From Pseudopyrenochaeta lycopersici (taxonomy: Eukaryota; Ascomycota; Dothideomycetes; Pleosporales; Pseudopyrenochaetaceae), in contig NHZP01000031.1 of NCBI GenBank assembly GCA_003313425.1, forward strand, positions 186,001 through 250,000: a stretch of 64,000 bases of DNA, read 5' to 3'. The position numbers and the translations under genes are program-made. Numbering within the stretch: the stretch's first letter is position 1; each line of letters opens with the position of its first letter. The notes under the pieces were generated by a model, which did not search any database, was not told the DNA's origin, and saw nothing but the letters and a program-made list of their open reading frames with translations. Below, piece by piece: positions 857 to 62,310 of this stretch.

Positions 857-1018
857 TCTCCTCTCCCAGAATCGAACTAGGGACCTTTCGATAGCAGAAT
901 AAACTATTACAGTCGAACGTGATCTAAGCAAAGTCAGCAAACTCCACATGCACATGCCACAGCGTGACAACTTTTGGGGGAGCAAGGACGACGTACAAAC
1001 CAACTACACCAAGAGGAG
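857..1018 (-). tRNA. tRNA-Tyr (GTA anticodon), interrupted in both the anticodon loop and the D-loop
   Basis: The 5' acceptor strand CTCCTCT (1018-1012) pairs perfectly with AGAGGAG (864-858), followed by discriminator A at 857. C1-G72 is the eukaryotic tRNA-Tyr identity pair. An A box TGGTGTAGTTGG spans 1011-1000. After the interruption come D-stem closure CAC and G26. The anticodon stem is TTCGA/TCGAA and the loop C-T-G-T-A-A-A has GTA at 910-908. The variable loop is AGGTC; the T-arm CCTAG-TTCGATT-CTGGG includes the B box. A normal-looking 14-nt intron lies at 906-893, as in all eukaryotic tRNA-Tyr genes; its UUAU can pair with GUAA of the anticodon loop. Without both insertions the molecule is exactly 75 nt. 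Flanking T9 supports Pol III transcription. The second insertion (924-996) is abnormal, so the gene could be functional, spliced by an unusual route, or dead. Confidence 0.8.
924..996 (-). other. 73-nt GT-AG, intron-like insertion inside the tRNA-Tyr D-loop
   Basis: On the minus strand it begins GTACGT and ends TTTGCTTAG. A GCTGAC branch-like motif lies about a dozen nt before the end. These are the signals of the short pre-mRNA introns in this window; esa1 and the aldo-keto reductase also use GTACGT donors. It separates the A box and GG of the D-loop from the rest of the D-arm. Its exact removal restores a D-arm of normal size. Known tRNA introns in fungi sit one base 3' of the anticodon, so this is not a standard endonuclease-type intron. 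I see no clear bulge-helix-bulge at its borders. Confidence 0.65.
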
Positions 1019-1557: not shown

Positions 1558-3676
1558 TCAAAAGTTCATCAGATCTGGCAAACGTTAGCAAGTTCTTCAA
1601 GTCTCTCACATGAGTAGATGGAGAGTTGGACTCACCTCGCCCAAAAAGGGCCCTCTTGGTCCAATCCATCGCCAATAAACATCGGGTCCTGAAGCTTACG
1701 CTTTGCGCAAAATATACACCTCTCCACAGGTACACCGCTAGTAATCCTCCACTCAATCCATATCCGTTGTAATCGAAGATGGCTGCGTTGCCAATGTAGG
1801 CCAGACTGCCGAGATGCTTGTATTCAAACGCCTTGTACACGGCATCATCAAGGTCGCCATAGTCCATGTTGTTGAGCGCCATGCCGGGTGCGGCTTGAGC
1901 AATCTTGTTGAACTTGCGACCTAGGTACTGGCCTTGTTGATTAGCGCGCTGTGCAGTCGCGGGGAGTGAGGTGAGTTTGGAGTCAATTTGGAAAAGGAGC
2001 TCCCTAAGCTCGCCGAAGTCGAGGGTACCAGAGTTATCTTTATCGTATTGCTCGAACAGTTTGTCTAGACGTTTGAGATGATTTGCCGATTGGGGAAAAC
2101 GCTGCTTCACCCGTTTGGCGACGCCACGCCAGTCCTGGTACGAAATATGTAGTGATTCGGGGTCCTTGCCCTTCTCCCAGGCTGTAGTGCGCAGAAAGTT
2201 TACAATGTGATCCGAGACATTGTTCTGAACAGTGGCGCAGTCGCCGATAGCATAGACGTCACCTAATGGTGAGCCATTCAGGCGCAGGTGAGTGTCGGTT
2301 TCGAGAGCATGCTTATTGTTTTGACCGTCCAATTTGGCGGCGAGGCGCTTGCAGAAGTCGGTCTGGGAAACGCCAGTGGACCAGAGGCAGAAGCCCATGG
2401 GGATCTCCTTGGTGATGACCTTGTCATTGTCGTCCTTTTGCGAGTAGAGAATTCTGTCTGCTTGAATCTCTTTGACACGGGAGTTGGTCTGGATGTCAAC
2501 CTCGTCGTGCGCAAATCGTTTTTCCGCATACTCGGACAAGGCCTCATCATAGGTGTTGAGAATGTGGCTGCGGGATTGAATGACGTGCACCGAGATTTCG
2601 TTGCGCAAAATCTTGGGGTAGAGCTTGCAAAGGTCCTCGTTGAGCATATCAAAGAGTTCTGCAGCAAACTCGACGCCAGTCGGTCCACCACCACAAATGA
2701 CAAAAGACAGCAACCTGCGCCTTTCCTCGTCAGAAGTAGTGGGTAGACAGGCGCTCTCAAGATTTCGAACGACTTGATTTCGGATCAATCGGGCGTCACT
2801 GATGTCCTTTAGGAAGTGACAGTACTCAAGGCCCTTCACACCATGAGGGTTTGTGACGGAGCCAACGCCAACTACCAGCTTGTCGTATGGAACATAGAAT
2901 CGTTGCTCCTGGCCATTGGAATCGACGGCTGAGCACTCGATGAGCTTCTCTGACAACTCGACATCCTCAGCCTTTGCCTTGAGGAAATGCCCATGTACTC
3001 TCCTCACAATCTTGCGGACAGGCTCCACGAGCGATCTCAGCTCCAGTGTTCCTACGGTCGCTGACGGCAGCATGGGCGTGAACAGGAACGTGTTGGACGG
3101 CGATATGACGGTGACGTGGTAGTCGTCTGGGTTCAGCTGCTTCAGAAGCGCCACGCTACCCCATCCGGTGCCCAGTATGACCAGCTTCGGCTTGTGCTTG
3201 CAGGCCTTGTTCTCTGGGCTGTCATCGTCGTCCACGAAGTGATTTGCAATAGGCAAGTTCTTGGGTCCGCCTCGCTGGGGGTTCAATGCGAGCTCTGACA
3301 CGGGTATGTCTGTTGCAATGGGATCATCGTTGTATGTGCTGGCATCGTAGACGAAGAAGGCTACCACCAAGCCGCCCGTCACCGCGACAAAGGTGCCGAG
3401 TATGGCGACTGTCCTGTATGCATATCGTATGAAGCGTGATCTGGTCACTGGGGGCGGCGCCGTCGAGACGGATCGTATTATCGGCGACCTGGACTTGTTG
3501 AATTGTGACGTTCGCAAGCCAGCTGAGCCTGCCAGCGATATGCGCGTTGCAGGAGTTCCATGGCTAAAGGGTGCGCAGAATGGTGTTGATGATCGGGGAA
3601 GACTTCTGCAAAGTGTAGAGGCTCTTATCGGACTGCTATATACACGCGCCAGCGATGCAGTCTGTCGTGGTAGCAT
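1558..3676 (-). CDS. External alternative NAD(P)H:ubiquinone oxidoreductase with EF-hand (NDE type)
   Basis: A rotenone-insensitive type II dehydrogenase that oxidises cytosolic NAD(P)H and reduces ubiquinone at the inner mitochondrial membrane. There are two exons, 3676-1636 and 1574-1558. The 61-nt GTGAGT...CAG intron restores the family C-terminus FGRDLMNF; reading through it would add a spurious tail. The product is 685 aa, with an Arg/Ser-rich presequence and one membrane segment at about 88-110. The FAD-binding GxGxxG is at 168-173 and the pyridine-nucleotide GxGxxG at 329-334. AIGD lies near 476-479. An EF-hand loop (D545, D547, S549, E556) sits in the usual insertion of Ca2+-regulated members. 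The residue ending the second beta strand is Gln367, not Glu, which in this family is associated with NADPH use. Function is confident; substrate choice is inference. Confidence 0.93.
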
Positions 3677-54444: not shown

Positions 54445-56599
54445 ATGTCCAAGACATCATCAGTTACCCACACAGAATTGCGCTTGACTCTGCGTAGGCA
54501 TGTGCAAATCCGGAGAGCAGAACTATTGGAGCTGGAGACTTTTGTGCCGCATTCCTGCGAGCACTGTTCGCAATTGATTATTAGAATCTCTGAACCTGCC
54601 CATCCAGCGTCTTCACAAGGCTTCGCAGCTCAAGACTTTCCAATCGATGGACTGACTGAACAGTTATTCCGAACTGCTGCTCAGAGCGAGTGCACGTTAT
54701 TCAGACGAGCGCGACCTGAGGACTATGAACAACTGGTTGGCACTCACCCTGAACAAATCCTTGGCCAGATCTTAGATAAAGCCATCTTGCCAAAGAAAAC
54801 GTTCTACTTAAGAGTCGAGAAACGAACAGATAAAGAAGCCGGGCGAAGACCCGCTACAGACCTCTACCAGGCACGAATTGCTCCATCGCATTATTGGGAC
54901 AAAACGGGGCTAAGGATTGCGTTTACCTCCAATGACCTCTTTATAGACGAAAGTACGTTGATTCAATTGTAGACGTGATAGAGCTGTGTTGACGACAAAA
55001 GCAGATTCAAAGCACCCGAAATGGTTATCAGCCCGTTGGAGGGGCTTTTCATCAGCAGCAACAGAAGAGTCGTTCACACAAGCAAAGAATTGGCTTCATG
55101 AATGCACCAGGTCTGACACTGACCATGATTGTAGTTTGCCACCAAAAGATTTTGTTCCTACTAGACTCATCAAGATTCCTACGTTGGAAAACGTTACATC
55201 TGTGAGGATAGTGGAAACGAACGGTGTGTACGTGTCATGGTGTGCTTTAAGCTACTGCTGGGGTGGACCTCAACTCATGCGGACGACGAAGGCCAACCTG
55301 AAAGACGGAACTCGATCGATATCGCTATCTAAATTACCAGCAACGATCCTGGACGCAATCCTGGTCACTAGCAGGCTGAAAATCCCGTATCTTTGGGTCG
55401 ACAGCTTGTGCATCGTCCAGGATGATGCTCATGATTTATCGCAGGAGCTAGCTCATATGCCCAAGATATATAAGAATTCAACATTAACCATTGTAGCAGC
55501 TTCAGCTACCGCATGTACCGATGGCTTTCTGCATCCTCGAGTCCCCCGGCTTGATCCTACGTACGGCCCACCAATCAGCCTGCGATGCGAAGATGAGCTG
55601 GGTGTGCAAGGGACCATCATTCTTCATGGAACGTTTAGACCAAGTGAACCAATTCATGATCGAGCATGGACAATGCAAGAGCAATTGCTGTCCCCAAGAA
55701 TGCTTCTATACAACACCTCAACTCTTGCATGGCTCTGTAAATCACAAAATTACACAGATTCACCTCAATCGGCTCCTATAAATGATCCATCAATCAACAA
55801 ATTCTTTTCCGACTTCGCGAAAAGCTTTAACAGGCAAGATATTACTGTTGGAGATGGTGTAAAACTTTGGCTGAGCATATTGAAGCATTACGGCCAGCGC
55901 AAGCTGGGATTCGAGCAAGACAGACTCATTGCTCTCAGTGCGATAGCTTCAGAATTTGGCGCAAAAACAAAATGGCAGTATGCTGCGGGCCTCTGGACGA
56001 GTTACCTCAACCTGATGCTTGGATGGTGGTGCGAGAATAACAACGGACACCGCCGGCCAGCCAAATATCGAGCTCCCTCGTGGTCTTGGGCTAGTATTAA
56101 TGGAATCGAGAGCTTTGAGACGGATTACCGGGACAACATCGTTCCCTTCAGGGCTCCACTAGAGGTCGAGGTGCAGCCAACCCGAGCCGAACTGCCATTT
56201 GGCGATGCACAGTCTGCACATATCTCGACAAGCTGTATGTCAGTTCGTGCCGTGCTCCGCAAGTATTTGGAAATTCCGTACCTGGTCATAGATAGAGCGG
56301 TTTTTGGGAAACCAAAGGATGAACTTGCCGCAGCTACCCCTTCCACTACAGTCTTACTTGATGCGCCGGTGGACGACTTTGCAGATTGGTGTGGAGGGAA
56401 CCGGTGGGATGTTTATCTGTTACCGTTCGACGCCTTTTCTAAATCCTATCCGTATCTCAGTCTTATCATCAAGCGGCTGCCAGGTTACCCGAGAAGGTAT
56501 CAGCGAGTGGGAATTTTTCTCTTGGGCCATGTTCCTGACATTGAAATGTTTCATGGGCTCTTGGAGTCGGTGAAACTGCAGAGATACTTCATTATCTAA
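54445..56599 (+). CDS. HET domain (heterokaryon incompatibility-type) protein
   Basis: HET proteins mediate non-self recognition and cell death after hyphal fusion. Exons are 54445-54952 and 55005-56599; the 52-nt intron (GTACGT...GCAG) gives a 700-aa protein. The N-terminal region has a Cys pair (SCEHC) typical of long HET proteins. The HET domain spans about 250-390: WCALSYCWGGPQLM, YLWVDSLCIVQDD, MPKIYKNSTLTIVAASA, then DRAWTMQEQLLSPRML. The C-terminal half includes YRAPSWSWASING, a typical second motif. There is no NACHT, WD40 or ankyrin tail. Its 3' end lies 160 bp from the MULE insertion. Confidence 0.88.
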
Positions 56600-60228: not shown

Positions 60229-62310
60229 TCAAATTAAGTTGATCCTTAACCAAGGTAACTGGGTCACATTTTCAAAATCCAATCCGTGCACATATGCTTC
60301 TCCAACAAAATGAAATCCAGGACTGGATGATCTGATGGCGAAAGGGGTCTGCGCGATGTTACCATTTGTACTCATTATAACAATCTGATCTCCGGGTATT
60401 GTAGTCATAATACCAAGACCCATATAGCCCTTCTTAGTAACAAACATACGCCTCCCAGCCCCCCAATGGGCTACAGCACTGAGATACGCCACCATGGTCG
60501 CAATCTTTCTGGTGAGAGGCTGTGTAGTGACGTCCGGCGCAAGACCACAGCTGGGCGAGCTCTTGGATGACTGGTCAGAATATTGTGTGAATTCATGTCG
60601 TTTCCGGATATTAATCTTCTCACTTGACCTTGGGGACAACGCTCGTTCTGGAGCTGAAACTTGAACGATATTTATTAAGTCGGGGTCATTTGTTGTCACG
60701 TTGAAGATTTCCCAAAAGTGGTCTTCGCCATCGTTGATTAGCTGGCCGAGGCCTAGTATTTCGACGTTTGTGATAAGTGTGAGGATAAAACTCCCAAAAA
60801 GTGACTCTCGAGTTGAGTGACGTCGGTTTCGTTGGTATCTACTCGTTTCAGTCGCGTCCATGTCCACCCCGGAATCGTCTGCATGTGACTGATCTTCTTG
60901 TCCACGTTCAAGAGCAGAGGTTTGATTTTTCTGTTTCCGGTATGGAGGCTCCTCGTCTTCATGATTTTTGTTGGCTGCCTTTTTCCAGAAAATAAACGAT
61001 CGCCAGAGCTCGTCAAGCCACGACTTGCTGAGATCTCCAATAAACACAACCTCATCCACTATGACGCCGTTTAGACAGAGAGTCTCAGCTTTTGATGTGG
61101 TATTAACATCGGTTAGAAATACAGTTTCTTGGGACCGGAAGACCCCAGTAAGCTTTGACACAGCTCTCGATCGAAAGAAAGATCTCCCCATTTGTACATG
61201 CCAGTCAGGCACCCAAGAAGGTAAACATATATCAGAAGATATGAACCTGACCTCGACTTGATTCAGTATATCTAAGGATCGTGTGGTCTTAATCACTTCG
61301 ATCACGAATCTTCGGTACACATCTGACGTGCTTAACGTGTAGTCTGGCAATGGCTGCGGTAAAATGTGGCAGAGCCCATACAAAGCAAATATCCTATCGC
61401 GAGGATCGGTGCACTTCTTGTCACGAACTCTCGGAAGTGTCGCTACTAGCCATCGCAACCAATCATCTTCAGTCTGATGGCTTGTATATGGGTATTTTGC
61501 CATATCATGTAGAAGCCTCACCATCCTAACTTTTCGGAGAAGAGACAAAGTATTTGAAATCTCACCAGTATCCAGGACTTCAACATTCTTTGAAGACAGT
61601 GCTATACAATGGTTCTCTATCCATTGGCAGCAGCGGGCCAGATTCGTCCAGGTAACCGAAAAATGCCCAGATAAGACCTCTGTGGCAAAAGGGCCATCAG
61701 GTCGGAGCCCTAAAGCCAATTCTTGAATGACCCACATTCTTTGGAACCAAGCTGAACCGAGATAATGCTTCAGAGCCTCACAATCTTGAGCGCTGATCTG
61801 AGGGGGTTCGTTTGTGGTTGTATGTTGCTCTAGCTCATACCCTGGAAGCCCCGCAAGGGAAGTGATCAGTGTTACAGCCGCCGATTCGTTACCCCTCACA
61901 CCAAGCCATATTAAAAGCTTCTTTGCTCGAGTATAAACTTTCGTCATCTGAGCCACTTGGTGGTTACGCTCAAAAACATTACTCTGATTGATACAAATAG
62001 CATCGACCCACAGAGTTTTTGGCTTGCCAGGATGACGAATATGCCAGAGAGCTTGGTAAAGATTTGAACGCACGGTGAGATAGTGTGTGCCAAAGCAGAC
62101 TATGGTCTTTGGATCCATATCCGGACCCCAAGCATACGACAATGCTGTGTATGGGACATGGTCTTCGGTACTCGCTTCGAAGATTTCGCAATAAATATCA
62201 CCACCAGAACCAGGGAGAAGGCTGAGGTATCGAACAGAAGTCGCCGAAGTTAATGGAGGATATACATATTCGCTCAAAAAAGAAGCTGATGATGGAATAT
62301 ACGCCGACAT
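60229..62310 (-). CDS. HET domain (heterokaryon incompatibility-type) protein
   Basis: Intronless, 693 aa from the ATG at 62310. Here the HET domain is near the N-terminus (about 55-215): PYTALSYAWGPDMDP, TLWVDAICINQ, RNHQVAQMTKVYTRAKKLLIWLG and WFQRMWVIQELAL. The middle carries LPRVRDKKCTDPRDRIFALYGLCH, common to the het-6-like group, and PSWVPDW. The C-terminal part has ARRMFVTKKGYMGLG-like sequence (GAGRRMFVTKKGYMGLGI) and PGDQIVIM, also het-6-like. A charged, Ser-rich insert lies at about 440-500. It differs from the HET gene at 54.4 kb in domain placement, so the two are not recent duplicates. Confidence 0.9.
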   Translation of the reverse strand: MSAYIPSSASFLSEYVYPPLTSATSVRYLSLLPGSGGDIYCEIFEASTEDHVPYTALSYAWGPDMDPKTIVCFGTHYLTVRSNLYQALWHIRHPGKPKTLWVDAICINQSNVFERNHQVAQMTKVYTRAKKLLIWLGVRGNESAAVTLITSLAGLPGYELEQHTTTNEPPQISAQDCEALKHYLGSAWFQRMWVIQELALGLRPDGPFATEVLSGHFSVTWTNLARCCQWIENHCIALSSKNVEVLDTGEISNTLSLLRKVRMVRLLHDMAKYPYTSHQTEDDWLRWLVATLPRVRDKKCTDPRDRIFALYGLCHILPQPLPDYTLSTSDVYRRFVIEVIKTTRSLDILNQVEVRFISSDICLPSWVPDWHVQMGRSFFRSRAVSKLTGVFRSQETVFLTDVNTTSKAETLCLNGVIVDEVVFIGDLSKSWLDELWRSFIFWKKAANKNHEDEEPPYRKQKNQTSALERGQEDQSHADDSGVDMDATETSRYQRNRRHSTRESLFGSFILTLITNVEILGLGQLINDGEDHFWEIFNVTTNDPDLINIVQVSAPERALSPRSSEKINIRKRHEFTQYSDQSSKSSPSCGLAPDVTTQPLTRKIATMVAYLSAVAHWGAGRRMFVTKKGYMGLGIMTTIPGDQIVIMSTNGNIAQTPFAIRSSSPGFHFVGEAYVHGLDFENVTQLPWLRINLI

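Follow-up and report, generated by a model that had tools for sequence, protein, structure and literature searches.

The interrupted tRNA-Tyr gene and its surroundings

The window considered here, a 64,000-nt stretch of the genome of Pseudopyrenochaeta lycopersici, contains on its minus strand a nuclear tRNA-Tyr(GUA) gene (1018-857) whose D-loop is split by a 73-nt piece, and every part of the gene that the initial annotation had claimed lies where it was said to lie. All features of the gene given below are on this strand. The 5' exon (997-1018) comprises the 5' strand of the acceptor stem, positions 8-9, the 5' strand of the D-stem and the D-loop as far as position 20b, and the 3' part (857-923), delimited by BLAST, ARAGORN and alignment, runs from the 3' strand of the D-stem to the discriminator A73 and includes an anticodon intron. 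Read directly from the sequence, the two acceptor halves pair at 7/7 positions, and the gene has C1-G72 together with A73, a tRNA-Tyr identity feature. The A box, placed by eye against its consensus, is complete from T8 to G19 (1000-1011) and lies upstream of the insert, the B box AGTTCGATTCT (868-878) was positioned from the paralogue alignment, and a run of nine T (839-847) forms the Pol III terminator; all three were judged against the general consensus. The anticodon GTA, evident in the sequence and called by ARAGORN, is at 908-910 and is followed at 893-906 by an ordinary anticodon-loop intron, which by alignment is 14 nt long here and 12, 13, 13 and 10 nt long in the paralogues.

Exact removal of the 73 nt restores a 75-nt tRNA-Tyr, as had been proposed, though not a ‘perfect’ one, because the D-stem consists of three Watson-Crick pairs and a T.T at 13:22, the latter common to three near-identical paralogues. 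With the insert removed, the cloverleaf and the GTA anticodon are recovered both by ARAGORN and by alignment to the paralogues, and ARAGORN then reports tRNA-Tyr(gta), 75 nt long and with 14 nt of intron in its anticodon loop. On the intact window ARAGORN calls no tRNA, and Rfam at gathering score, run on the whole window, gives no match and misses the gene as well.

A count of the tRNA-Tyr genes had been called for, and whole-genome BLAST of the 3' half (857-930) against the assembly (62.7 Mb, 188 contigs) finds five loci, the window's included. The D-loop is uninterrupted in the remaining four, and ARAGORN calls tRNA-Tyr in each; when the genome was searched for tRNAs with Rfam and 63 of 2106 candidates were scored, these four intact genes were not among the matches listed. 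Of the 22 bases of 997-1018, 20 match three of the paralogues (L002-L004). Compared with L003 or L004, the exons of the window gene differ at 3/75 positions, namely 5, 20b and 68, and the first and last of these form a compensatory pair, 5:68 being T-A in the window gene and, in the four paralogues, G-C three times and C-G once. The anticodon intron is far more diverged than are the exons. The exons have thus been constrained since the paralogues split, perhaps only until the insertion, and comparison with the four paralogues reveals neither a stem-breaking exon change nor a signal lost beyond the insert itself.

The upstream neighbour, identified by homology, is an external NADH dehydrogenase with an EF hand (1558-3676, minus strand), closest to proteins of Setomelanomma holmii, Ophiobolus disseminans and Alternaria metachromatica; among the best 120 of 2781 matches, these are 85% identical across 86% of the query, which suggests a host in or near the Pleosporales. 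The last intron of the dehydrogenase gene (1635-1575; GTGAGT...GCTAAC...CAG) serves as a local control for mRNA introns, and once it is spliced out the protein ends in FGRDLMNF, as do four of the five homologues compared, the fifth having FGRDIMNF. Elsewhere in the window, the ORFs at 60229-62310 and 54986-56599 look by eye as though they encode HET-domain (heterokaryon incompatibility) proteins.

Other tRNA genes of the same genome were surveyed for comparable interruptions. A pattern joining an A box to a donor site occurs at 26 genome sites against 56 for its backwards control, and 383 GT..AG excisions over 27 loci give a tRNA only from the two copies of the window's gene, with the A-box pattern itself fitting only 5/40 tRNA genes found in the genome, so that this survey has little power. 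Searches with the 3' halves of tRNA-Gly-GCC, Asp-GTC, Lys-CTT and Val-CAC lead to 14 places, with an ARAGORN tRNA in 14/14, so that with tRNA-Tyr as the fifth query 18 of the 19 tRNA places are called, the exception being the window's. One of the 14, L100, carries the ARAGORN label Ser and reads in its sequence as Asp. Among all 41 loci scanned by ARAGORN, L001 and L087 are without a call; the latter (G000:C8:1070135-1070239) is an Rfam tRNA match of 38 bits and by eye resembles tRNA-Ile(TAT), the acceptor stem being imperfect and the anticodon loop holding a long intron. The tRNA-Tyr 3'-half pattern has no match in collections of viral or of bacterial and archaeal contigs, which, being non-fungal, are uninformative on conservation.

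Intron signals and origin of the D-loop insert

The insert (924-996) lies between positions 20b and 21 and is absent from 4/4 paralogues found. The empty site reads GGTTC/ATCAC in three of them and GGTTT/AGCGC in the fourth; their D-arm is GTGTAGTTGGTTCATCAC in three and GTGCAGTTGGTTTAGCGC in one, and the window has GTGTAGTTGGTTT, then the 73 nt, then ATCAC. Borders set in this way by alignment, at 996 and 924, coincide with GT...AG, and because the empty-site paralogues alone fix them, the splice motifs found there constitute an independent match. The description of the piece as one with mRNA-intron signals is borne out at these borders by a donor GTACGT (991-996), a branch-site motif GCTGAC (933-938), with the branch A at 934, and an acceptor TAG (924-926). 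Fungal introns have, according to PMC5832005, an RCTRAY branch, a YAG acceptor and 6-36 nt between the two, and the GCTGAC, the TAG and the 10 nt from branch A to the end of the insert all fall within this consensus. The donor fits GTRNGT and misses the W of GTRWGT, having C where A or T is favoured in the donors of U3 introns (PMC5832005).

How often such an arrangement occurs by chance was estimated with a strict regular expression for donor, branch and acceptor together, with 20 dinucleotide-shuffled windows as the control. The real window has 20 matches; shuffled sequence averages 7.35 per 128 kb, with a range of 3-13, and the chance of a match is approximately 6e-5 per given start site, the fit of the end not yet being demanded. 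The placement of GT, branch motif and AG at the insert is more than chance. This leaves little room for the view that random DNA entered the D-loop and resembles an intron by coincidence; the expression does also match shuffled sequence about seven times per 128 kb, yet the figure of 6e-5 holds for the start site alone and is lower once the end is fixed, and we regard coincidence as very improbable.

The longest T run within the insert is three, with no internal run of four or more. Such freedom from T runs is common across the window, being seen in 2777 of 3456 sampled 73-mers and in 19 of the 20 regex candidates, and the short runs are for this reason permissive only and not a signal. For a group I or II catalytic core there is no Rfam match at gathering score within the window, and 73 nt is too short for an intron of either group. 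Taken as a whole, the insert is very probably best described as an intron of spliceosomal type that lies in the D-loop of a tRNA.

Its source was sought in the same genome. The initial annotation had brought in the spread of introner-like elements, and this found no echo, as a seeded genome search at E<=10, which diverged copies could escape, matches the insert only to itself. Introners of the transposon type have short direct repeats at their borders. At the borders of the insert there are no exact repeats of 2-7 nt, and the longest repeats nearby, 4 nt within 10 nt and 5 nt within 20 nt, are equalled by 1298 and 1395, respectively, of 2000 random pairs; a short repeat that most random pairs match is indistinguishable from chance. 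In PMC11782384 every intron examined is described as having direct repeats close to its borders. The insert as a recent introner copy was set aside, with no second copy found and border repeats not beyond chance, and so was kinship with the U6 intron of the same genome, for which the local score is reached by 226/1000 shuffles. Gain by reverse splicing into the tRNA, followed by reverse transcription and recombination, would fit, because the border repeats are not notable.

Proposed splicing of a Pol III transcript and the alternatives

The U6 gene had been offered as a precedent for spliceosomal introns in Pol III genes, and an intron-bearing U6 gene is indeed present in the same genome. Scoring 47 of 4276 candidates gave at least two matches to U6: one, L063 (C14:415719-415826), has no interruption and is followed, beyond its terminator, by a GTTCGA motif, and the other, L064, has a 52-nt mRNA-type intron (1576-1627; G000:C19:201303-201354) of the form GTTCGT...GACTAAC...CAG, after removal of which its U6 sequence aligns with the uninterrupted copy. 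At least one U3 match was also found (24 of 633 candidates scored), and in this gene, L090, a 57-nt GT-AG intron (1458-1514; G000:C7:1164571-1164627; GTGAGC...GCTAAC...CAG) appears to lie just before box A, the 5' exon having been read by eye. The two introns have in common a B-box-like motif, GTTCGANNC, in the form AGTTCGAGACC in U6 and AGTTCGATTCA / GTTCGATTC in U3, with a chance of approximately 0.003 per intron as judged from the frequency of the motif in the window, and each of the two intron-bearing genes has a TATA-like stretch upstream and a run of eight T downstream. In fission yeast U6 the B box lies in the intron. If both genes are Pol III units, as the intronic B-box-like motifs point to, then their transcripts must be spliced, with no other U3 gene detected among the candidates scored, and in P. 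lycopersici U3 may be made by Pol III. The presence of the U6 and apparent U3 introns in the same genome makes splicing of Pol III-type transcripts plausible in this host.

Our preferred reading, to which we would give a probability of roughly 0.5 on sequence evidence, is that the insert is spliced by the spliceosome from a Pol III transcript to yield a working tRNA. The tRNA-Tyr(GUA) gene would have gained a spliceosomal-type intron at 20b/21 of its D-loop, Pol III would transcribe the whole 162-nt unit, the major spliceosome would remove the 73-nt intron, as for U6, and, with the tRNA fold thus restored, endonuclease and ligase would then take out the 14-nt anticodon intron. That the gene is functional through the successive action of two unrelated machineries, spliceosome and tRNA endonuclease, on one 162-nt Pol III transcript is a fuller claim, for which we would put the odds just short of even. 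Splicing is supported by the four uninterrupted paralogues, the exact motifs at the borders, the undamaged exons, the intact A and B boxes and T9 run, and the U6 and U3 introns. Against it count the C in the donor and the work of the 1980s in which mammalian Pol III transcripts were reportedly unspliced, and only 1/5 of the tRNA-Tyr genes is interrupted, which counts against function.

The loss of one copy out of five would be tolerated, which makes an inactivated gene a serious rival: the spliceosomal-type intron would be poorly spliced from a Pol III transcript, and the gene would be a recently inactivated, tolerated copy. Four intact tRNA-Tyr genes remain to the cell, and short insertions in the D- or T-arm, which mostly affect one of many synonymous genes, are generally supposed to mark pseudogenes, as stated in PMC4090602. 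The predicted ensemble of the unspliced RNA is also in keeping with inactivation, in that the branch motif is paired, the unpaired probability of its GAC being only 0.03-0.06; the donor is partly paired (unpaired 0.52-0.81), and the last acceptor base mostly so (unpaired 0.2). In the minimum-energy fold, the D-loop AGTTGGT pairs with the GCTGACT around the branch site, with a pair probability of only approximately 0.29; this modelled helix could hinder splicing or could be a chance pairing. On the other side stand exons without structure-breaking change, the compensatory change at 5:68, and intact boxes and T run. Were the insertion very recent, a similar source intron might be expected, and none was found in the genome; the source may have been lost, may be foreign or may be too diverged for a seeded search. 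We consider inactivation quite possible, if rather less than an even bet.

Two further routes appear improbable to us. By the first, the insert would be a 3'-UTR intron, spliced only within Pol II read-through from the upstream NADH dehydrogenase and irrelevant to the tRNA. The two genes are on the same strand, with the stop codon ending at 1558 and the tRNA starting at 1018, 540 nt apart, which is long for a fungal 3' UTR, and a UTR intron has no reason to restore a tRNA exactly; the chance of this is slim. By the second, the tRNA splicing endonuclease would excise the insert as a non-canonical tRNA intron; the removal of such introns is ascribed to this enzyme in PMC4090602, where archaeal introns at 20/21 are likewise recorded, and in the tRNA-Ile of Cyanidioschyzon merolae an intron interrupts the D-arm at 12/13 (PMC9602550). 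The bulge-helix-bulge score at the D-loop borders, 2.67, is the same as that of the gene's own anticodon intron, the expected endonuclease substrate, and so does not separate the two introns; among 500 pairs of borders placed at random in the same RNA, 17.8% score as high or higher, and so the value constitutes no positive signal. The score having little power, it is the spliceosomal motifs that speak against this route, for GT, branch motif and AG would all be coincidence, and endonuclease cleavage seems about as slim a prospect as read-through.

Significance and comparison with known systems

If the preferred reading of spliceosomal removal is right, the spliceosome would be shown able to process a tRNA precursor, intron gain would be possible in a wider set of Pol III RNAs, and to U6 and U3, as structured RNAs that can acquire spliceosomal introns, tRNA would be added. 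The intron would be of a kind not usually expected in tRNA genes, and its insertion would have been caught in a structured RNA that is short and constrained at nearly every base. Even a dead gene would document the entry of a spliceosomal-type intron into a tRNA gene, with a bearing on the origin of new introns. A gene finder that allows for tRNA introns in the anticodon loop alone can overlook genes of this kind, as ARAGORN did, and since it missed the window's gene, more interrupted tRNA genes may have gone unnoticed. Among the matches listed in the literature searched (titles and abstract openings, most subscription journals lying outside it), there is no report of a spliceosomal intron in a tRNA gene, and passages of PMC8476143, PMC13148404 and PMC8450103 contain nothing on the subject. 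As of 2017, according to PMC5832005, frequent interruption by an intron was known among small structured RNAs for U3 and U6 only.

The introner-like elements of the Dothideomycetes resemble the insert in that they are spliceosomal introns of new origin and occur within the same class of fungi (PMC4457414); unlike it, they are multi-copy, no second copy of the insert having been found in the genome. Archaea, nucleomorphs and C. merolae share with the window gene a second intron outside the anticodon loop, including one at the archaeal 20/21 site (PMC4090602). The window insert differs from these in its spliceosomal border motifs, and its bulge-helix-bulge is not above chance by a score of low power.

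Further parallels come from mRNA-type introns in non-coding RNAs, among them 18S rRNA, whose genes are transcribed by Pol I. The 18S rRNA introns of ascomycetes are, like the insert, mRNA-type introns in a non-coding RNA that is not made by Pol II (PMC11889510), although they are often at conserved sites and their host is not a tRNA. Fungal U3 snoRNA introns again place a normal spliceosomal intron in a structured RNA gene (PMC5832005); these lie mostly in the 5' stem-loop of U3, whereas the window insert is in a tRNA D-loop. The mRNA-type introns of fungal U6 share with the insert a short GT-AG form with a branch motif, inside a small-RNA gene of Pol III, but the host in the window is a tRNA, which has its A and B boxes inside the gene and contains a second, endonuclease-type intron.
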